A stretch of DNA of 64,000 nt from an uncultured Spirochaetota bacterium (GTDB lineage Bacteria > Spirochaetota > Spirochaetia > JAFGXN01), in assembly GCA_944390005.1 (NCBI GenBank), contig CALXOJ010000008.1:1-64000 (forward strand). The letters run 5' to 3'. Positions 5,081-34,173 of this stretch are shown here, piece after piece. The number at the start of each line of letters is the position of its first letter. The stretch's first letter is position 1. The notes beneath the pieces were generated by a model, which searched no databases, was not told the DNA's origin, and worked only from the letters and a program-made list of their open reading frames with translations. Made by a program: the position numbers and the translations under genes.

Positions 5081-5979
5081 GAAAACTTCCTCCGTTTCAT
5101 CATCCGCTTCAAAATCACATTCAGCAGCAGAATAAAAACCGTCATCACCAACGCCGAAGCCCACGCCGAAAGCACCCACTTTTCATAAGGCGAACCTGCA
5201 TATTGAAAGACAGTGACCGTCAGCGACGGCATCGGCGCACTCATATCCGCCGAAAGGTAGTTGTTATTAAATGAGGTGAACAATAACGGCGCCGTCTCTC
5301 CCGCGATGCGGGAAACAGCCAACGAAACGCCGGTAAAAACGGCGGAAAAGGCACTCTTAAGAACAACATCTTTGATCACTTTGTAATACGGCGCCCCCAA
5401 CGCAAAAGCGGCTTCCCTCATCGTCCACGGAATGAGCCGTAAAGCGTCTTCGGTCGTCCTCATAACCAGCGGAAGAATGATAATTGCCAACGCAATCGCT
5501 CCCGCCCAACCGTTAAAACCGCCGAACGGCTGAACCAAAAATGAATAAACAAAGGTACCGACAATAATGGTGGGAACGCTGACACTGACATCTGCCAAAC
5601 CGCTGACGATTTTTCCGAAACGGGAACGGTTGCCGTATTCTGCCAAGTAAACGCCTCCCAAAACGCCGACAGGAATGCCGATGAGCGAACCGACTCCGGT
5701 AAGAATCAGCTGACCGATAAACGCGTGACGCATACCGCCTTCGTTTTCGAGCCACGGCGGAGCGGCGTCATCGGTAAAGAGAGCCAAACTCATTCCCGCT
5801 AAACCGGTTTTAATAAGACTGTATAAAATCGAAAAAAGACAGGTAACCCCGACAAAAGCCGCCAAAAACGAGAGAAAGAACATCAAACGGCCTTTAATTT
5901 TTCTGCGCATTCGGTAATTGTTCTTTCCGGCAAAACCGGAGAAGAGCTCCTTGATTTTTTCGTATAACCGACCGTTCAT
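5077..5979 (-). CDS. pstA: Phosphate ABC transporter permease PstA
   Basis: Inner-membrane permease of 300 residues with about six hydrophobic segments. The binding-protein-dependent permease signature is visible ([21 protein letters not shown]), as is the PstA-typical GGVYLAEYG. The start at 5979 lies 1 base after the pstC stop; extending upstream would run into pstC. It forms the channel with PstC. Confidence 0.95.
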
Positions 5980-5980
5980 T

Positions 5981-6907
5981 TCACTTCTCCCTGAGAATGT
6001 AGAGTTTGGCGAGCGCCAGCGTTGAAAAGTTGAGAACGAAGAGCAGCAGCGCCAGCAAAAACAGCGATGACATCTGAAGTCCCGACGCTTCATTGAATTC
6101 GTTGACCAGAACGCTAGTCACCGTGACGTAGGGATCAAAAACCGAAGTGAGGGAAATGTTCATATTTCCGATGATGTAAGCGATTGCCATCGTTTCACCG
6201 AGCGCCCGCCCCGCCGCAATGACAACTCCGCCGTTAATCGACCGTCTGACATAAGGAAGCGAAACGTCGCGCACCACCTCCCATCGTTCGGCACTCAAAC
6301 CGTAACCGGCTTCCTTCAATTCTTTCGGAACGCACGCCAACGCCTCGCGGGCAACCCCGGTGATAAACGGCAGAACCATAATGCTCAGCGTCAGCCCCGC
6401 AGTGAAAAGTCCAATGCCGCCGGCATAATGAACCTGAAAAACCGATCCGATCAACGGCAGCTCTCCCAACGAAGTGGCCGCCGCCTTTTGAACGGTTTTT
6501 TCCAAAAACGGTGCAAAGACAAAAAGTCCCCACATTCCGTAAATGATACTGGGAACGGCAGCCAAAAGTTCGACAGCGGTCGAAAAAAAACCGCGCAAAA
6601 ACGAAGGACACAACTCTGTCAAAAAAACGGCGATCCCAATGCCCATGGGAGCGGCGATTCCGACAGCAATCACCGACGTTAAAATCGACCCCAAAAGCGG
6701 CCGAGCCGCACCGAACACCGATTCTCCATAGTTCCAATCCGCTGTAAAAATAAATCGAAAAAAACCGAACTCTTTCAACGCCGCGCGCGATTCCCACAGC
6801 AAACTGAAAAAAATACCGAGACAGATGAAAAGCACGGAAACAGCGGAAATCAGCGAAAGCGCGTAAAACAGATTGTCTTTGGTGATCTTTTTTTGAATCG
6901 ACGGCAC
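5981..6907 (-). CDS. pstC: Phosphate ABC transporter permease PstC
   Basis: Inner-membrane permease of 308 residues and the first gene of the operon. It has an N-terminal membrane segment (about 18-38) and the family motif VPSIIYGMWGLFVFAP. The EAA loop is ACVPKELKEAGYGLSAERWEV, followed by GRALGETMAIAYIIGN. Its upstream region holds a direct repeat resembling a Pho box. Confidence 0.95.
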   Translation of the reverse strand: MPSIQKKITKDNLFYALSLISAVSVLFICLGIFFSLLWESRAALKEFGFFRFIFTADWNYGESVFGAARPLLGSILTSVIAVGIAAPMGIGIAVFLTELCPSFLRGFFSTAVELLAAVPSIIYGMWGLFVFAPFLEKTVQKAAATSLGELPLIGSVFQVHYAGGIGLFTAGLTLSIMVLPFITGVAREALACVPKELKEAGYGLSAERWEVVRDVSLPYVRRSINGGVVIAAGRALGETMAIAYIIGNMNISLTSVFDPYVTVTSVLVNEFNEASGLQMSSLFLLALLLFVLNFSTLALAKLYILREK

Positions 6908-6961
6908 ATTCTTCTCCGCTTTCTTTATAATCCGAAAACACCGAAAAAGGCGTTATCGCAG

Positions 6962-6978
6962 CGTAAAATAAACGTAAA
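6962..6978 (-). promoter_or_regulatory. Candidate PhoB-binding direct repeat
   Basis: On the minus strand TTTACG occurs twice, 11 bases apart, in an AT-rich setting about 55 bases upstream of pstC. PhoB sites in other bacteria are 11-base direct repeats, so the period fits although the sequence is not the enteric consensus. A TATAAA-like -10 lies further downstream, with a longer gap than usual, which weakens the call. Confidence 0.4.
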
Positions 6979-6990
6979 TTGACGCCTATT

Positions 6991-7015
6991 AAAAAGGGCT
7001 TGCCGAAGCAAGCCC
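6991..7015 (-). terminator. Rho-independent terminator of the fucosidase-lipoprotein operon
   Basis: An 8-bp perfect stem (GGGCTTGC with GCAAGCCC) with a 4-base loop and five Ts on the minus strand. It lies about 20 bases after the stop of the last lipoprotein gene. Confidence 0.85.
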
Positions 7016-7034
7016 CCGCAGCGGTTTTTACCGA

Positions 7035-8567
7035 CTACTCCGCTTCGGATGACGAAACGGCAGAGGTAAGAACACGCGATTTGAAAAAAGCCAAATCTTT
7101 AACAGTCATAACGATATCGTTAAAATTGAAAGTCAATCCGGCGTAGTCACTGAATTTTTTAGCACCATTCCATTCAAATTCAAGCGGTTCAAAATCGATA
7201 AAACCCGTCATCAATCCGCTTTCGGCATCCTGATACACACCGGCATTCAACGGTATGCCGGCGGACACGGACACCGCAATCGTCCGATCATCTTCCCCGC
7301 CGTTCCATGCTCCAGTCTCTCCGTCGAAAATAAACGCTTTGCCGCCTTTATAAAATGAGAATCCATGCGGAGGCTCATTTCCTTCATACATAAAAAAATT
7401 CGGACTCCCCGACTCCCACTCCACGGTCAGGTGAACGGTATCCCAATCTTCACCACTCAGTTTATCCAGAACATTTGAAATCTTGCCGTCATCGCCGCCA
7501 ACCAACCCCGTACCGGGGGTAAAAACGAGGTTAGTCGTCACGGTCATTTTCCCATCCGTTGCAGAAGAAGCAAAATCCGCATCATACTCTTCCTGCGTCA
7601 TTTGCGAAAACGGCCAACCGATAACACGTTCAAAAACCAGCCTCTCTCCGCGAACGTCGGCAATAAATCGGGTAAGGATATTCTCCTGCGCAAAGTTTTC
7701 AGAGTAAGAAACCATCGACTCAACAAAGGCGGAACCTGTGCTGACCGTCACACCGAAAACGGTCATCGGAAAAAGTTTGTCGAGAGAGACCTCTTTCAGC
7801 GACATTTCACGAACCAAAGTGTCGCCGTTGAAGAGAACAATGCGCTCAGAGGTAACCAACAATCCCGCCGTTGTCCACTGCGAAGCCGCCGTTTCAATCG
7901 GAACGGTCACAGTTCCCACTTCGGGATCATACGACGTCAGGGAAAATGCCGCCGCACCGTCGCCGATTGTATAAATATTGACAGCAAAAAAACCGAAAGA
8001 AACCGCTGTCGGCAATGCCGCAGAGACGGAACCTCCTTTCGGAACGAAGCCGATCGAATTTTCTGTCAACGCTGCGCCGTCCGCAAACGTCCACTGCGTC
8101 GACGGCAAAGATTGAAGGGAAACCGCTTCAAACGACAGATCGTCAACCGCAACCGTTTTTGATTCCGGCCATTCAAGAGAAGAGTTGGGAACCGTATCGG
8201 TTTGCCGCGCCGTGACGCCGAAGTAAAAACCGGTGCCTTTTGCGGATGTGATGCGGACATTAGCCTGATGAATCCCCGACTTTGTCTGCGGAATGTTGGA
8301 AACGGTAACCGTCAGCTTATCTCCGTCGCCTGCCGCCTTGACGGAGAAGTACTCCGAAGCGCAAGTCACTGTCGCCTTTTTGGCGTTCACTACATTGATC
8401 TCAAACGACTGCGAGCGGGGCGAAGCGTATTCGACATCGCCGAAGTCATACAGATACGTTCCCGATTCGTAAGTTTTGCCGTCGGCAACCAACAGAATCG
8501 GCTCTTCTTCGCCGCAGGCAAACAGCAGCAGCGCGGCGGTCAATATTGTCATTAAACCTTTTTTCAT
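7035..8567 (-). CDS. Large lipoprotein, unknown function (beta-sandwich-like)
   Basis: No named family recognised. The 510-residue protein has a lipoprotein signal with lipobox LFAC (Cys 18). Residues about 35-115 look like an immunoglobulin-like beta domain (YDFGDVEYASPRSQSFEINV). Two further Gly/Thr/Trp-rich beta regions follow. The last region (PNFFMYEG, HGFSFYKGGKAFIFDG, ending VKDLAFFK) resembles the end of the neighbouring lipoprotein (PNFYVGDG, YGFEFSKDGQAAFLLNG, ending IEKITFYK), so the two are probably paralogous there. It is third and last in the operon headed by the fucosidase. Surface glycan binding is a reasonable guess from context only. Confidence 0.8.
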   Translation of the reverse strand: MKKGLMTILTAALLLFACGEEEPILLVADGKTYESGTYLYDFGDVEYASPRSQSFEINVVNAKKATVTCASEYFSVKAAGDGDKLTVTVSNIPQTKSGIHQANVRITSAKGTGFYFGVTARQTDTVPNSSLEWPESKTVAVDDLSFEAVSLQSLPSTQWTFADGAALTENSIGFVPKGGSVSAALPTAVSFGFFAVNIYTIGDGAAAFSLTSYDPEVGTVTVPIETAASQWTTAGLLVTSERIVLFNGDTLVREMSLKEVSLDKLFPMTVFGVTVSTGSAFVESMVSYSENFAQENILTRFIADVRGERLVFERVIGWPFSQMTQEEYDADFASSATDGKMTVTTNLVFTPGTGLVGGDDGKISNVLDKLSGEDWDTVHLTVEWESGSPNFFMYEGNEPPHGFSFYKGGKAFIFDGETGAWNGGEDDRTIAVSVSAGIPLNAGVYQDAESGLMTGFIDFEPLEFEWNGAKKFSDYAGLTFNFNDIVMTVKDLAFFKSRVLTSAVSSSEAE

Positions 8568-8584
8568 AAAACTCTCCTTATTGA

Positions 8585-9814
8585 TTACTCGCCTTCCGCA
8601 GCGGAAACGATCGCTTTGTAGAAAGTGATTTTTTCGATGGAAACACTGCCCACACTGTTGTCAGTGTGCAATCCGAAGGTCAAACTCTTGGCGTCGGTCA
8701 GCAACGTATCGGTGCTGTCGGGAACACCGGAAACGTTCTTCAATGTATTGCCCAAAACGCTGAACCAGGCAGCGTTTTGACCGCCCTTCTCCCAGAATCC
8801 GATCGTATTCGATTCGCCCTGTTTCAATCCGACAGAACCTCTGCCATTACGACTGTTCCAACCGTTCAAAAGAAAAGCCGCTTGGCCATCTTTAGAAAAT
8901 TCAAATCCGTACTGTCCGTCTCCCACATAAAAATTCGGTTTATAGTTCTCTCTCGGCGTAAAGGTCAGGGCAATCGCATCGTAAGTTCCCGCCTCGGGCA
9001 ATGCGGCACCCGCCACTATCATCTTAGAGTCGGCATGATCGGCATTAAGAAGTAAACCAAGGTCGTCCGTCGTAGACCAAGACAAATCTCCTTCAGAAAA
9101 AGTGATTCCATCAATTCCGCTACTGCTCACTCCGGCAAAATCGATGACCTTGACAGGTTCAAAATATTGACCATTGATTCCAACATAATTCGGATCGGCA
9201 AACGTCACGGGGTGGCTGTAGCTTGCCGTGCGGCCGACATTATCGGCAATAGTAAAAATTCGATTGAGAACGTCGCCGTGTTTGGCTGCAGCGACAGCCG
9301 CTTCGTCTTCCCAATAACCGCTGCGCGTCTCCAAATTCAATCCGCTGCCTTCGTCACTCATCGCATTATCAGGAATGCTGTCAATAAAATTCTCCGCTTC
9401 TCCGATATTACACGAATCGCTTGTGTTGACAAAACCGATAACGGGGTCGCTGACATCAACGCCGACTGCCAACTGCGCATACTGAGAGCGGCCGAAAACG
9501 TCGGTCGCCGTGAACAAAATATCGTAAACGCCCGTCTCGTTCGGCAGCGTGTACCCTTCCTGGACGGTGATCTCCTCACCGCCGTTCAGAGAGACGGTGT
9601 ACGAGAGGTTTTCGCCCGTCCCCTTCCAGCTCAGCACAGGCGGCTCTTTGAACCACGCCACGCCGTCTTTATCAACGTAATCCGGGGCGCCGGAAACCGC
9701 CACATCGCTCAGTTCAACGGCAGTCTCCGCCGCTTTTTGATCCAATTGTTTTTCGGTATCGCAGGCGAACAGCGCCAGCGCCGCCGCTGCGATGAAAATT
9801 GCTTTTTTGTTCAT
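8585..9814 (-). CDS. Lipoprotein paralogue, unknown function
   Basis: A 409-residue lipoprotein: lipobox LFAC (Cys 18), then an Ig/cadherin-like region (about 25-120) with GVYDILFTATDVFGRSQYA, a pattern seen in Big-type adhesion domains. The C-terminal half is a beta-rich domain shared with the downstream lipoprotein. The start at 9814 is set by the ribosome site AAGGAG and the clean signal peptide; the frame continues upstream without a better start. It lies between the fucosidase gene (16-base gap) and its paralogue (17-base gap). Role unknown; sugar or mucin binding is inferred from the neighbour. Confidence 0.8.
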   Translation of the reverse strand: MNKKAIFIAAAALALFACDTEKQLDQKAAETAVELSDVAVSGAPDYVDKDGVAWFKEPPVLSWKGTGENLSYTVSLNGGEEITVQEGYTLPNETGVYDILFTATDVFGRSQYAQLAVGVDVSDPVIGFVNTSDSCNIGEAENFIDSIPDNAMSDEGSGLNLETRSGYWEDEAAVAAAKHGDVLNRIFTIADNVGRTASYSHPVTFADPNYVGINGQYFEPVKVIDFAGVSSSGIDGITFSEGDLSWSTTDDLGLLLNADHADSKMIVAGAALPEAGTYDAIALTFTPRENYKPNFYVGDGQYGFEFSKDGQAAFLLNGWNSRNGRGSVGLKQGESNTIGFWEKGGQNAAWFSVLGNTLKNVSGVPDSTDTLLTDAKSLTFGLHTDNSVGSVSIEKITFYKAIVSAAEGE

Positions 9815-9830
9815 AAATCTGCTCCTTCGA

Positions 9831-11771
9831 TTATTCATCAAGTGAACCTTCATAACTCTTGTATAAACCCAACTCGGAAATCAGGAACGGAACCGGCTCT
9901 CGCGATTCGTTGATGGTCAGACGGAACGCCTTTGCGGTTGTTTCGGCAGTGCGGAGAATCCGTTTATATCCGATAGTCGTTGTCTCATCCGGATTGCTAT
10001 TATCACCAGAAATATTATACGGCATATTCGGCAGTTCAACCGATTTCCAAGCGCCCGACTCGTCTTGCGCCTCAACGGTAAACGATTTGACACGCTGACC
10101 GAGGGCGATGTACTCCTGCAGCACAATGCGGTCAAAGGTGATCGGATTTTTAAATGTGAATGTCACGGAACCGGAGGTCACCTCATTGTTGACCGTCCAG
10201 TAGGTATCAAAATCATCGTCAATCAGGTTGTACGGACCGAAGGTCTCCTGACCGCCGCGGATGTTGGACGCCTCAACCGACGCAACGTTCTCTTTCGTCA
10301 GCAAATCGGTTTTAAAATCTTCGGTGATTTGTTTCCACATCTTACGAGCCTCTTCCAAACTGTCGGCAGGGATCAATCCGTCTCTTCCGGGAGAGAAGTT
10401 GAGCAGCAGCGTTGCGTTGCGGCCGACGGAGCGGTACCAGAACTCAACCAGTTCTTTATACGGGCGGGTAGAGTTACTATTTGTGCTATGAAACCAACCG
10501 CTTCTGGTTTTCATGTCACATTCGGCAGGAAACCACGTTTGACCGTCTTCGCTACCGTATTCTTCAAAACCCATAGACCAGCAGGTGCGACCCGCCCAGC
10601 CTTGCTCGTTGCCGACCCACCGGATACCGCGACCGCTGTTGTCGCCAAAAACAACGGCATCAGGTTGGTTTTTGCGGATAATTTCGATCGCAGCTGCTTT
10701 CATTTCTGCCAAATAAGTATCTTTATTGACGGTCGGACCTCCAGGCGTCAACTCTCCGGAAGTACGTGTAAACATTGCGGTCGGATTATTATTTTTCAAC
10801 GTTTGAAACCACACATACGGATTGTCTTGAACTTGAGATTTTATCGAGTTGTAATCACCTCCGCCGTACCAACCTTGAGTCTCATTAGCGCCGTCAAACC
10901 ACACTTCAAAGATGTCTCCAAAAAGCGTTGTAATCTCTTCAGTCTGCTTTGTAAAAATATCGACGTATTCGGGGTGAAGGTATGCCCAATTGTTCCTATC
11001 CCACGGAGAAAGGTAGAGTCCCAGTTTCATTCCGTGAGCCTGCAGTTTTGGCGCCAAAGAGCCGGTAATGTTGCCATTGTACATTCCCTCTTTACTGACA
11101 GAATAATCCGTCGCTTCAGTGTCCCAAAGACAGAAACCATCATGGTGTTTAACCGTGAGAATCAAAGCCTTCATGCCGCGAGCATGAAGTTCATCCGCCC
11201 ATTGTGTCGTTATTGTTTCGACGTCGGAAGTCGGTTGAAACGCCTGCCCTTCGGTCGGTTTTCCTTCGCCCCACTCCGCATTGCGGAATGTATTCGGACC
11301 GAAGTGAATAAACGCATACTGCTCTAACTTCTGCCACTTCAGCTGAGATTCGGTCGGAATCGGCAGCAGCGGATCGGGAGCTTCGGTATTTCCGGACTCT
11401 TCAATAAACGGCATATCGGTCGAATAGGTTAAATAGAAGCTGACCGATGAGTCTTTTAAATCTTTACCGTTGCCGATTGCTTTAAGCGCCACATTCATCG
11501 AGCCGCCTCCTTTCAAAGAAGGAAGCGTAAACGAAGTGACCGACGCATCCAATACCTTGCGCTCATCTCCGTAATAGACGATGTAGCCGGCCGCTCCCGC
11601 TACGGAATCCCAAGTCAAAACACCGTCCTCGATTTTTATATTATCGGGAGACGGCAGCGACGGCACAATGTCAGGTAAAAGCTCTTTTACATCTTCATTG
11701 TTCCAATCAATTTCTCCGCATCCGATCAAAAAAAACAATACGGATAAAACAATAAAAGTTATTTTTCTCAT
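9831..11771 (-). CDS. GH29 alpha-L-fucosidase lipoprotein with FN3-like and discoidin-like domains
   Basis: A secreted, lipid-anchored fucosidase of 646 residues. Order: lipobox LIGC (Cys 18); a fibronectin-III-like domain (about 42-115, LTWDSVAGAAGYIVYYG); a GH29 catalytic domain (about 150-490) with LTVKHHDGFCLWDT, GLYLSPWDRN and the nucleophile Asp near 293 in EVWFDG; then an F5/8-type (discoidin) carbohydrate-binding domain (about 510-635). It would release alpha-L-fucose from host-type glycans at the cell surface. The ribosome site is AGGAG. A 13-G tract lies just upstream of a TAAAAT box, so expression may be phase-variable. First gene of a three-gene operon. Confidence 0.93.
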   Translation of the reverse strand: MRKITFIVLSVLFFLIGCGEIDWNNEDVKELLPDIVPSLPSPDNIKIEDGVLTWDSVAGAAGYIVYYGDERKVLDASVTSFTLPSLKGGGSMNVALKAIGNGKDLKDSSVSFYLTYSTDMPFIEESGNTEAPDPLLPIPTESQLKWQKLEQYAFIHFGPNTFRNAEWGEGKPTEGQAFQPTSDVETITTQWADELHARGMKALILTVKHHDGFCLWDTEATDYSVSKEGMYNGNITGSLAPKLQAHGMKLGLYLSPWDRNNWAYLHPEYVDIFTKQTEEITTLFGDIFEVWFDGANETQGWYGGGDYNSIKSQVQDNPYVWFQTLKNNNPTAMFTRTSGELTPGGPTVNKDTYLAEMKAAAIEIIRKNQPDAVVFGDNSGRGIRWVGNEQGWAGRTCWSMGFEEYGSEDGQTWFPAECDMKTRSGWFHSTNSNSTRPYKELVEFWYRSVGRNATLLLNFSPGRDGLIPADSLEEARKMWKQITEDFKTDLLTKENVASVEASNIRGGQETFGPYNLIDDDFDTYWTVNNEVTSGSVTFTFKNPITFDRIVLQEYIALGQRVKSFTVEAQDESGAWKSVELPNMPYNISGDNSNPDETTTIGYKRILRTAETTAKAFRLTINESREPVPFLISELGLYKSYEGSLDE

Positions 11772-11792
11772 AACATTTTTCTCCTATATTCA

Positions 11793-11825
11793 CATTTTAC
11801 CCCCCCCCCCCCAATATTTCCTGAA
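11793..11825 (-). promoter_or_regulatory. Poly-G tract at the fucosidase operon promoter
   Basis: Positions 11800-11812 are 13 consecutive Cs, that is 13 Gs on the coding strand, about 28 bases upstream of the start codon. A TAAAAT hexamer directly follows the tract on the minus strand, so the tract fills most of the expected -35/-10 spacer. Slippage there would change promoter spacing. In Treponema pallidum poly-G tracts upstream of tpr genes are known to tune transcription. The promoter boxes here are inferred. Confidence 0.7.
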
Positions 11826-11867
11826 AAAACAAAAAGTTATTTTTTCGGCTCTGTTTTTCGGATTTTC

Positions 11868-11896
11868 TTGACATCTTCCGTGTTTTTTTTTAAAAC
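11868..11896 (+). promoter_or_regulatory. Promoter of rarA, probably leaderless
   Basis: Perfect -35 TTGACA (11868-11873), a 17-base spacer that is mostly T, and -10 TAAAAC (11891-11896). The ATG of rarA is 7 bases later, at the expected transcription start. The -35 itself contains an in-frame TTG that mimics an earlier start codon. Confidence 0.7.
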
Positions 11897-11903
11897 AAAA
11901 GAC

Positions 11904-14093
11904 ATGGATCTCTTCGACATACCCGGACAACAGCCGCTGGCGGCGCGGATGCGGCCGCGGAATTTGGATGAATACATCGGTCAGTCCGAAATTCTCGGCG
12001 AAGGACGGCTTCTACGGCGGGTGATTCAGGCTGACCGCCTCGGTTCACTCATCTTCTACGGACCTCCCGGAACGGGAAAAACGACGCTGGCGCAGGTCAT
12101 CGCCAACACGACGCAAAGCGCGTTTGCTTCCCTCAACGCCGTCCTTTCGGGAATCAAAGAGCTGCGCGAAGAGATTGAAAAGGCGAAGGAGCGCAAAACC
12201 CTCTACAACCGCCGCACGATTCTTTTTGTCGATGAAGTCCACCGCTGGAACAAGGCGCAGCAGGACGCGCTTCTGCCGTGGGTGGAAAACGGAACGGTCA
12301 TTCTCATCGGCGCGACAACGGAAAACCCCTACTTCGAGGTCAATAAAGCGCTGGTCAGCCGCAGCCGCATTTTTCGACTGACGTCGCTGAGCGAAGAAGA
12401 GCTGCGCCGCGTTGCCCTGCAGGCTGTCGGCGACCGCGAACGGGGCTACGGGAAATTCAACGTCGTTTTCGAAGAAGGCGCGCTCGAACATTTGATTCAA
12501 ACGGCGGAAGGCGACGCCCGCAACCTGCTGAACGCGCTGGAGCTGGCTGTCGAAACCACTCCCGAACGCTTCCCTCCGAAAGAAGGAAGCGAAATCCGTA
12601 TTTCGCTGGCAACTGCCGAGGAGAGCATTCAGCAAAAAGCGGTTCTGTACGACAAGGAAGGCGACTACCACTACGACATTATCAGCGCATTCATTAAATC
12701 ACTGCGGGGTTCCGATCCCGATGCGGCGCTGTACTGGATGGCCCGCATGACGGAAGCGGGCGAAAATCCGCGGTTTTTGTTCAGGCGAATGCTGATTTTA
12801 GCGTGTGAAGACGTCGGCTTGGCCGATCCGAATGCCATTCGAACCGTAGAAGCGTGCGCCGCCGCCTTTGACCGCATCGGTATGCCGGAAGGAAATTTTA
12901 TGCTTTCTCTGGCGGCGCTTTACCTCTCCACCTGCCCCAAAAGCAATTCGACACTGGCTTTTTTCGATGCCGTCGAAGCCGTGCGCAAAGAACGCAACGG
13001 CGAAGTTCCCGACCATTTGAAAGACCCGAGCCGCGACGGCGACGATTTCGGCCACGGAAAGGGCTACCTCTATCCGCACGCCTACCGCGACCACTGGACG
13101 GCGCAGCAGTACCTGCCGAAATCGCTTCAGGGACGGATCTTTTATCAGCCCGGCAAGCTCGGTTACGAGGCGCAAATCGCCGATGATGTCAGACGGCGGC
13201 GGGAAATTCAACTCTCCCAAACAGCGGAAAACGATGAAACTGACGTGCTGACATTTGCTTTCGATAAAGAAGAATCGAAGTGGCTTCTGCGAATGAACCG
13301 CGACCCGAAAGCTGACGGCGAACTGCGCGACGATGTTTTGAATCGGCTGCCGTGGAAGCGCCACTTCAATGTCTTGGACGTCAACGCCGGCGGCGGTTTC
13401 TTTGTGTGGGAAGCGCTGCGCCGTTCAACCGAAGGGTCGGTGTATGCGTTGACAGCAACCGACAGCGAAAAAGAGATCATCGATTTTCATGCCTCCGAAT
13501 TGGATGAGGTGCGCCGCCCGATTGTCATCTCCGATGCCTCGTTTGAAAATCGCATGAAACGTCTTCCCGAAAAAATTCGATTTGAAATTATCTTGGCGCG
13601 CGAGCTCTTTTTGAAAAGCTGCCGCACTCCGGAAACAGCCGCCCTTCTGCGGACAAAAGCGGCCGAAAACGGACGATTGCTGGTGCTCCAAACGCTGCCC
13701 CGTTTTTCGACGCGGCTGTCGCAGCTGCTCCCGCCGCTGCCTTCCCTTTCAAAACCGACGGAACAAATGCGTGCTGCCGAAGAAAAAATTTACAGCGACC
13801 GCACCAACCCTCTGCTGACAATCGACAGCGACAGCCTGACAAACCTTCTCGAAGCCGCCGGCTGGGAGACCGTCAGCCGGGAAGAAAAAGAGATCGACGG
13901 CTTCCGTTCAATTCCGAAAGAACGGATTGAAAGCTGGTTCTCCCCCGACGGTCTTTACGGCCGCCGCCTGGAAAAGGAGACGGCCGCCGCGTTAAAGACG
14001 CTTTGCTTCGACCGGATCGCCGGGCGGAACCATCCGTGGCGAAAACGGATTTTCATTGCGGTTTTCAAAGCGGTGCAGCCGACTTTACCGTAA
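11904..14093 (+). CDS. rarA: RarA-type AAA+ ATPase fused to a methyltransferase-like domain
   Basis: 729 residues against about 430 for plain RarA/MgsA. The N-terminal part is RarA, a replication-fork maintenance ATPase of the clamp-loader clade: Walker [10 protein letters not shown], Walker [12 protein letters not shown], sensor-1 [11 protein letters not shown], then HLKD and GYLYPH in the C-terminal region. From about residue 440 a second domain follows with the SAM-binding-like motif [11 protein letters not shown] and a Rossmann-like pattern. Fusions of RarA to an extra domain are known in cyanobacteria and some other phyla. The start at 11904 is preferred to the TTG at 11868, which lies in the -35 box. 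It runs divergently from the fucosidase operon. Confidence 0.9.
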
Positions 14094-14116
14094 AACACGA
14101 TAACGAATTTCTTTTT

Positions 14117-14218
14117 GGGCGCGTGCGCGCCGGACAGCGCGCACCGCGTCGACGGCGGGCGCGGTCTGCCTGACGGCAGACGGCCTTCGGCCCCCGCCGT
14201 GCCGCTCGCGCCTTCGCA
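14117..14218 (+). repeat. GC-rich structured intergenic element, copy 1
   Basis: Starts 24 bases after the rarA stop. It begins with a 16-base block (GGGCGCGTGCGCGCCG) and ends with CTCGCGCCTTCGCA; both are shared with a second element at 34023-34173. Inside, GTGCGCGC pairs with GCGCGCAC (14123-14144). ACGGCGGG pairs with CCCGCCGT around two smaller hairpins, one with a 7-bp stem (GTCTGCC/GGCAGAC) and one with GGCC/GGCC, giving a branched fold. Far more GC-rich than its neighbours. No open frame here looks like a gene. Confidence 0.75.
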
Positions 14219-32439: not shown

Positions 32440-34014
32440 ATGATCAAATTCAACAATCTTGACAAAGCACCGTCTTACGCCGCCTTAAAAGCCGCCGAGC
32501 CGGCCGATTTACGCAAAGAACTGACCGTCGAACGCATCCAAAAAAGCTCTATTCCCATCGGAGGAGGACTGACATTCAACTTCGCCTGCCGTTCCTTTAC
32601 CGAAACGACGCTGACTCTTTTGCAAAAGCTCGCCGATGAACAGCAGCTCATCGAAAAGTACAAAATGCTGCTCTCGGGAGAAGTGATGAACACCGGAGAG
32701 AAGCGGCTGGTAATGCACCAACTGACGCGGGGCGAATGCCTCGGTCCCGTTGAAGCCGACGGGCGCGACCTCGGTCGTTTCTACCGCGAACAACTTGAAC
32801 GCATCGCCGCTTTTGCCGACAAAGTTCATAAAGGAGAAATCACCGGCTCCACCGGCAAACCGTTTGAAAAGGTTGTCCAAATCGGTATCGGCGGCTCCGA
32901 CCTCGGACCGCGGGCACTCTGCTTGGCTCTCGAAACAGCGGCGGCCGCTGACGGAACGCTGAAACTGAAAACCGGCTTCATCTCCAACGTCGACCCCGAT
33001 GATGCAGCCGCCGTCTTAAACGACCTCAATTTTGAAACGACGCTGTTCATCCTCGTTTCCAAAAGCGGCACCACGCAGGAAACATTGGCGAACCGCGCTC
33101 TCGTTCTCAAACGCATGGCCGACGCCGCAATTCCCGGACTGAATCCCTCAAAACACATGGTCGCCGTCACCTCGGCAACTTCACCGCTGGCGCAGTCTGA
33201 CGAATACCTCGACTCGTTCTATATTGATGATTACATCGGCGGCCGTTATTCTTCGACATCGGCGGTCGGCGCCGTCATCCTGACGCTCGCTTTCGGATCC
33301 AAAACTTTCAACGAACTCCTTGCCGGCGCACACGAAGCCGACCTTTCCGCCCTCACCCCCGAAATCGCCAACAACGCCGCCCTTGCCGACGCCCTTCTCG
33401 GCGTCTTCGAACGCATGCACGGTTTTTCATCCACCGCCGTATTGCCGTACAGCCAGGCGCTTGTTCGATTTCCCGCTCATCTCCAGCAGCTGGACATGGA
33501 AAGCAACGGCAAAAGCGTCAACCGTTTCGGCGAACCGGTCTCATACCCGACAGGTCCCGTCCTTTTCGGGGAACCGGGCACCAACGGTCAGCACTCATTC
33601 TACCAACTCCTCCACCAAGGCACCGATACCGTACCGCTGCAGTTCATCGGTTTCACGGAGAACCAAGGCGGACTTGATTTATCAATCGACGGCAGCACCA
33701 ATCAACGAAAACTCAACGCCAACCTCGCCGCGCAAATCACCGCTTTCGCTCTCGGAAAAGACGACGACAATCCCAACAAACGGTTTGCCGGGAACCGCTA
33801 CTCGAGCCTCATTTACGGCCGCCGGCTGACACCGCGCGCCCTCGGCGCCCTGCTCGCCCACTTTGAAAACAAAGTTATGTTCCAAGGTTTCCTGTGGAAT
33901 CTCAACTCTTTTGATCAGGAAGGCGTACAGCTCGGCAAAGTACTGACCAAAAAAGTCCTCGGCAACGACATGAGCCCCGAATTGGCAGCTTTTGACGCTT
34001 TGCTCAACGGCTGA
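32440..34014 (+). CDS. pgi: Glucose-6-phosphate isomerase
   Basis: Interconverts glucose-6-phosphate and fructose-6-phosphate in glycolysis. 524 residues with QIGIGGSDLGPRA, VSKSGTTQETLANR (phosphate-binding), IGGRYSSTSAVG and the late GVQLGKVL signature. Ribosome site GAGAGG and a 16-base gap to xseB suggest one operon. A GC-rich repeat element follows 9 bases after the stop. Confidence 0.97.
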   Translation: MIKFNNLDKAPSYAALKAAEPADLRKELTVERIQKSSIPIGGGLTFNFACRSFTETTLTLLQKLADEQQLIEKYKMLLSGEVMNTGEKRLVMHQLTRGECLGPVEADGRDLGRFYREQLERIAAFADKVHKGEITGSTGKPFEKVVQIGIGGSDLGPRALCLALETAAAADGTLKLKTGFISNVDPDDAAAVLNDLNFETTLFILVSKSGTTQETLANRALVLKRMADAAIPGLNPSKHMVAVTSATSPLAQSDEYLDSFYIDDYIGGRYSSTSAVGAVILTLAFGSKTFNELLAGAHEADLSALTPEIANNAALADALLGVFERMHGFSSTAVLPYSQALVRFPAHLQQLDMESNGKSVNRFGEPVSYPTGPVLFGEPGTNGQHSFYQLLHQGTDTVPLQFIGFTENQGGLDLSIDGSTNQRKLNANLAAQITAFALGKDDDNPNKRFAGNRYSSLIYGRRLTPRALGALLAHFENKVMFQGFLWNLNSFDQEGVQLGKVLTKKVLGNDMSPELAAFDALLNG

Positions 34015-34022
34015 TTCTGTTC

Positions 34023-34173
34023 GGGCGCGTGCGCGCCGATTACGGCGCGCACCGGGCTTTCCGCTGCAATTCACGGCGTCCCTTTGCCTGCATCTGAGGC
34101 AAAGCTGCCGCTTTGCCCTGCGCCTCCTTCCCGTCCGCCGTTCATTTCCGCTTCAATCCCTCGCGCCTTCGCA
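34023..34173 (+). repeat. GC-rich structured intergenic element, copy 2
   Basis: Shares the opening GGGCGCGTGCGCGCCG and the closing CTCGCGCCTTCGCA with the element at 14117-14218 but has a longer, different middle. The opening hairpin is a perfect 10-bp stem (34029-34038 with 34043-34052). A further hairpin TTTGCC/GGCAAA lies near 34083-34103. Like copy 1, it follows closely after the stop of a plus-strand gene. Confidence 0.75.

Follow-up and report, generated by a model that had tools for sequence, protein, structure and literature searches.

A promoter poly-G tract as a probable phase-variation element of a fucosidase lipoprotein operon in an uncultured spirochaete

What is known of poly-G tracts in the promoters of surface-protein genes? 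In Treponema pallidum, the tract of tp0126—which encodes an OmpW homologue—lies between the -35 and -10 elements, and expression is best at a 17-nt spacing; tprL is active in a reporter with 8 but not with 10 G's, and tprE, tprG, and tprJ require 8 or fewer (PMC7864442). In Neisseria meningitidis, a poly-G tract forms the promoter spacer of porA and a poly-C tract covers the -35 of opc, both of which tune transcription (PMC7864442). The mucosal commensal Gardnerella carries many G/C tracts, most of them upstream of ORFs; a fucosidase differs between its colony variants in proteomics, a difference that the cited passage does not ascribe to tract control (PMC11287997).

How does a poly-G tract in an uncultured spirochaete compare with these systems? 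The genome comprises 1,954,369 bases (1.95 Mb) on 19 contigs, and the window—the whole 64,000-nt stretch of DNA analyzed—contains a run that reads C13 on the plus strand and G13 on the strand of a three-gene operon (sequence and run scan of the window). A preliminary description had placed this thirteen-G tract in promoter position as the longest homopolymer of the window, followed directly by TAAAAT and, about 28 bases on, by the start codon of an operon for a fucosidase and two lipoproteins. All of this holds: The tract ends exactly 28 bases before the fucosidase ATG at 11771; other G/C runs in the window reach at most 7 and A/T runs at most 9; and three lipoprotein genes lie downstream on the minus strand, the first of them matching GH29 fucosidases in Pfam. 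On that strand, an A/T-rich stretch is followed by CAGGAAATATT, G13, TAAAAT, GTGAATAT, AGGAG, and the ATG. The features of the locus are as follows.

6991–7015, minus strand: hairpin resembling an intrinsic terminator (GGGCTTGC-TTCG-GCAAGCCC, then T5), which ends the operon; read from the sequence and missing from the automatic scan's list
7035–8567, minus strand: third lipoprotein gene, 510 aa (ORF)
8585–9814, minus strand: second lipoprotein gene, start placed at MNKKAIFIAAAALALFAC (ORF)
9831–11771, minus strand: putative GH29 alpha-L-fucosidase lipoprotein gene, 646 aa, with an F5/8 type C domain (Pfam; PDB 5k9h, 5.9e-78; lipobox LIGC by eye)
11781–11785, minus strand: AGGAG, Shine-Dalgarno-like (sequence)
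11794–11799, minus strand: TAAAAT, putative -10-like box abutting the 3' end of the tract; top -10 score of the region
11800–11812, minus strand: G13 homopolymer, proposed slippage element
11822–11827, minus strand: TTTTCA, weak but best -35 candidate by hexamer score; with the tract at G13, a 22-bp spacer separates it from the -10
11830–11846, minus strand: A/T-rich stretch GAAAAAATAACTTTTTG, possible UP element (by eye in an upstream alignment)
6894–11882, no strand assigned: cassette comprising the operon with its promoter and tract, which the sister species lacks (BLASTN and junction reading)
11904–14093, plus strand: divergent rarA/mgsA-type AAA ATPase gene (Pfam MgsA_C, 5.5e-60)

The operon genes are separated by short gaps. 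The first matches the Pfam families Alpha_L_fucos (PF01120; 9e-26) and F5_F8_type_C (6.7e-11), and its alignment to 5k9h covers IFEVWFDGAN, spanning the WFDG motif region expected of a GH29 enzyme; together, the lipoprotein signal and the GH29 domain suggest a product exposed at the cell surface. The second and third lipoproteins had no match in Pfam or NCBIfam, the cassette DNA had none among plasmids and phages, and the fucosidase, used as a query against genome contigs, found no relative.

Does the length of the tract set promoter spacing, as had been proposed? The idea is plausible, but no good -35 lies at 16–18 bp, and the best candidate, TTTTCA, stands at 22 bp with G13 (scored with E. 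coli-type hexamers). The tract is a homopolymer of at least 8 beside putative -10 and -35 elements. Because the spacer equals 9 bp plus the tract length, a 17-bp spacing would correspond to eight G's if consensus hexamers apply, and the weak -35 with its 22-bp spacer predicts low or no expression in the assembled G13 state. A/T-rich stretches upstream of two other promoter tracts in the genome (L064 and L070 below) resemble the one in the window by eye in an alignment, so a role as an UP element is possible.

Like tp0126, the locus combines a poly-G promoter with a probable surface-protein gene, but it belongs to another spirochaete family, serves a glycosidase operon rather than a single porin-like gene, and has a weak -35. 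The tprL and tprE/G/J genes likewise have poly-G in or near surface-protein promoters, with fewer G's permissive in T. pallidum; however, no tpr gene is present at the window operon, and the products are of other classes. The opc promoter, whose -35 lies within the tract, resembles the weak -35 seen here and is perhaps the nearest analogue, although N. meningitidis belongs to another phylum and its genes encode a porin and an adhesin, not glycosidases. Gardnerella shares the abundance of G/C tracts upstream of ORFs but is also from another phylum. The tpr analogy of the preliminary description stands as one of mechanism and fails as one of descent: The genome falls outside Treponemataceae in a RarA tree, the gene is that of a GH29 fucosidase lipoprotein and not of a Tpr or other outer membrane protein, and, among the further members of the class included in the search, most had no G run of at least 11. 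A genome of the same family (G002) has no G/C run of at least 11. The RarA matches, from a search of genome contigs that gives placement at class level only, assign the genome to the class Spirochaetia; a 16S model search of this assembly gave no match.

Is the window tract a solitary case? A whole-genome pattern search found one G8, no G/C runs of 9 or 10, and twelve of 11–17, whereas Markov models predict 0.29 (order 1), 0.04 (order 3), or 0.008 (order 5) runs of at least 11 genome-wide. Thus, the set did not arise by chance. The sequence around every long G/C run was retrieved and read individually, with the following result outside the window (spacings here and in the window are deduced from consensus hexamers).

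L061: promoter G8; small lipoprotein; TTGACA, 18 bp, TAAAAT
L062 and L068: promoter tracts in near-identical promoters; GH29 plus F5/8 type C lipoproteins; at L068, TTAAAT, 17 bp, TATAAT
L063: promoter tract; sulfatase lipoprotein; TTGACA, 19 bp, AATAAT
L064 and L070: promoter tracts; Big_2 lipoproteins; at L070, TTGACT, 18 bp, TATCCT
L065: promoter tract (C13); start of a truncated gene, GtrA-like by eye
L066: tract inside an ORF; C-terminal end of a GGDEF protein
L067: tract inside an ORF; Big_2 lipoprotein, immediately past the lipobox
L069: tract inside an ORF (ATGCATCAG-C13); GT2 glycosyltransferase
L071: tract just 5' of the start codon; lipoprotein
L072: promoter tract; 825-aa lipoprotein; TTGACA, 18 bp, TATATT

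A lipoprotein start lies no more than 45 nt downstream of eight of the twelve long tracts; the same filter applied to 240 run-orientations of length 5–8 made five calls, none of which looked by eye like a true lipoprotein start. At six loci (the window, L062, L064, L068, L070, and L072), the tract ends 28–30 nt before the ATG. The promoter tracts are followed within 0–6 nt by -10-like boxes whose summed best-hexamer score was reached by none of 20,000 shuffles, and again by none of 20,000 when the L068 duplicate was omitted. The tract makes up most of the spacer after TTGACA or TTGACT at L061, L063, L070, and L072. MutS is present in the genome, so nothing points to a general mutator state, and loss of MutS as the driver of the tracts was rejected. 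The G13 of L066 (5795–7381; tract 5812–5824) occupies the extreme 3' end of its ORF, which encodes a GGDEF diguanylate cyclase; slippage there would alter only the last residues or the stop.

The genome-wide pattern greatly strengthens the case for phase variation, which had been put forward earlier as the likely role of the tract. We consider it likely that the window G13 is a slipped-strand phase-variation element in the promoter of the three-gene lipoprotein operon, one of about 12 such switches, and that it would act in the manner of tp0126 and tprL in T. pallidum. Slipped-strand mispairing would add or remove G's, the altered length would shift the distance from the TAAAAT box to the upstream elements (the weak -35 and the A/T-rich stretch), and transcription of the whole operon would flip randomly between high and low. 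Across the genome, the ~12 G/C tracts of at least 11 would independently switch three fucosidases, a sulfatase, Ig-like lipoproteins, and surface-sugar enzymes. As one of twelve runs located mostly at surface-lipoprotein or surface-sugar genes, the tract probably represents an established class of random on/off switches, applied here to new targets.

Could the tract instead be a fixed part of the promoter that confers constitutively low or regulated expression with no switching, acting as a rigid spacer rich in G or as a site to which a protein binds? The -10-like box and the upstream A/T-rich stretch would fit such a component, but promoter tract lengths within this genome range from 8 to 17, and G and C orientations are both found in the equivalent position (L072 and L065). 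In addition, similar tracts lie at the N-termini encoded by the L067 lipoprotein and L069 glycosyltransferase genes, where their location inside ORFs excludes a promoter role; the N-terminus of an ORF is the other classic position for such tracts. We therefore regard a fixed component as improbable and retain the slippage-driven switch.

Are the tracts shared with close relatives? The sister species (G001), whose RarA protein is 98% identical, was the one relative used for the comparison of loci, and it lacks the whole window cassette together with its tract: The counterparts of window positions 6893 and 11883 are separated there by ~116 bp of unrelated sequence (BLASTN and junction reading), which leaves the window tract with no orthologous tract in G001. 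In contrast to the C13 of this genome, the colinear L065 tract reads C8TC7 in G001, within flanks that are 98.5% identical between these two close species. The L066 tract also occurs in G001, where two contigs end at it, and further G001 tracts precede lipoprotein starts at L075, L076, and L083. Because many contig ends of G001 carry messy poly-G, its tract lengths were not used as evidence where contigs end.

The two species also differ in gene content and order. The GtrA-like gene behind the C13 promoter (L065, 7606–7760) is truncated ~150 bp past the tract, whereas G001 reads onward. Positions corresponding to the tracts at L071 (7173–7183) and L061 (7133–7140) hold insertions of 1.3–1.4-kb lipoprotein-like genes in G001 (L222, 2008–3327, and L223, 1418–2854, respectively), unless this genome has lost them. 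The lipoprotein gene of L072 (7408–10099; G001:C6:56894–59600) occupies a different chromosomal place in each species, with the C tract marking the precise start of the homologous unit and a dispersed repeat marking its end. This GC-rich intergenic repeat of ~100–160 bp has ~30 copies in G001; copies here include window 14113–14217 and 34011–34172, L063 9610–9760, L070 7389–7534 and 12048–12202, and L072 9955–10106. Gene order between the two genomes breaks at the repeat edge at window 14217.

Might the tracts, besides acting through promoter slippage, double as shared joints for the insertion, loss, or movement of lipoprotein cassettes, so that the surface repertoire is both switched and renewed? 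We think this unlikely, and we assign a still lower probability to the broader proposal that they are recombination joints for cassette gain, loss, or movement, whether besides or instead of slippage. Gene order does break at the tract or within ~40 bp of it at L061, L071, and L072; the break lies ~70 bp away in the case of the window tract and 150–180 bp away at L065 and L067. However, the turnover that lipoprotein genes undergo in any case would be expected to leave breaks close to their promoters; breaks also coincide with dispersed repeats (window 14217 and L072), L066 retains both of its flanks in G001, and the comparison is one of two genomes. Slipped-strand switching of promoters remains our preferred reading of the tracts.

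A promoter directed at rarA (TTCACA, 18 bp, AATATT; plus strand, 11789–11818), in which the C tract would be the spacer and its length would vary rarA expression, has 9 of 12 consensus matches in a scan; yet six such sites occur in the region compared with 4.6 (SD 2.2) in shuffles, and the nearer promoter-like TTGACA of rarA itself (11868–11873) is retained upstream of rarA in G001, which has no tract there. We rejected this candidate as being at chance level and find it extremely unlikely that the tract acts through it. That the long homopolymer is an artefact of assembly or base calling, as the messy contig ends of G001 might suggest, deserves next to no credence, given that the tracts of this genome are mostly contig-internal, of a clean 11–13 length, and set in a recurring promoter architecture.

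The mechanism proposed for the fucosidase operon is already known, and a poly-G phasome in this lineage would be a further case of it. A limited literature search found neither a homopolymer-switched fucosidase operon nor a poly-G phasome in a non-Treponema spirochaete. If the reading is correct, a spirochaete family distant from Treponema would have a poly-G phasome of its own, the targets of which are not porins but lipoprotein glycosidases, Ig-like proteins, and a sulfatase. Two closely related spirochaete species would then allow a comparison of promoter switching by poly-G and of the turnover of cassettes, and access to host or dietary glycans would be bet-hedged cell by cell.
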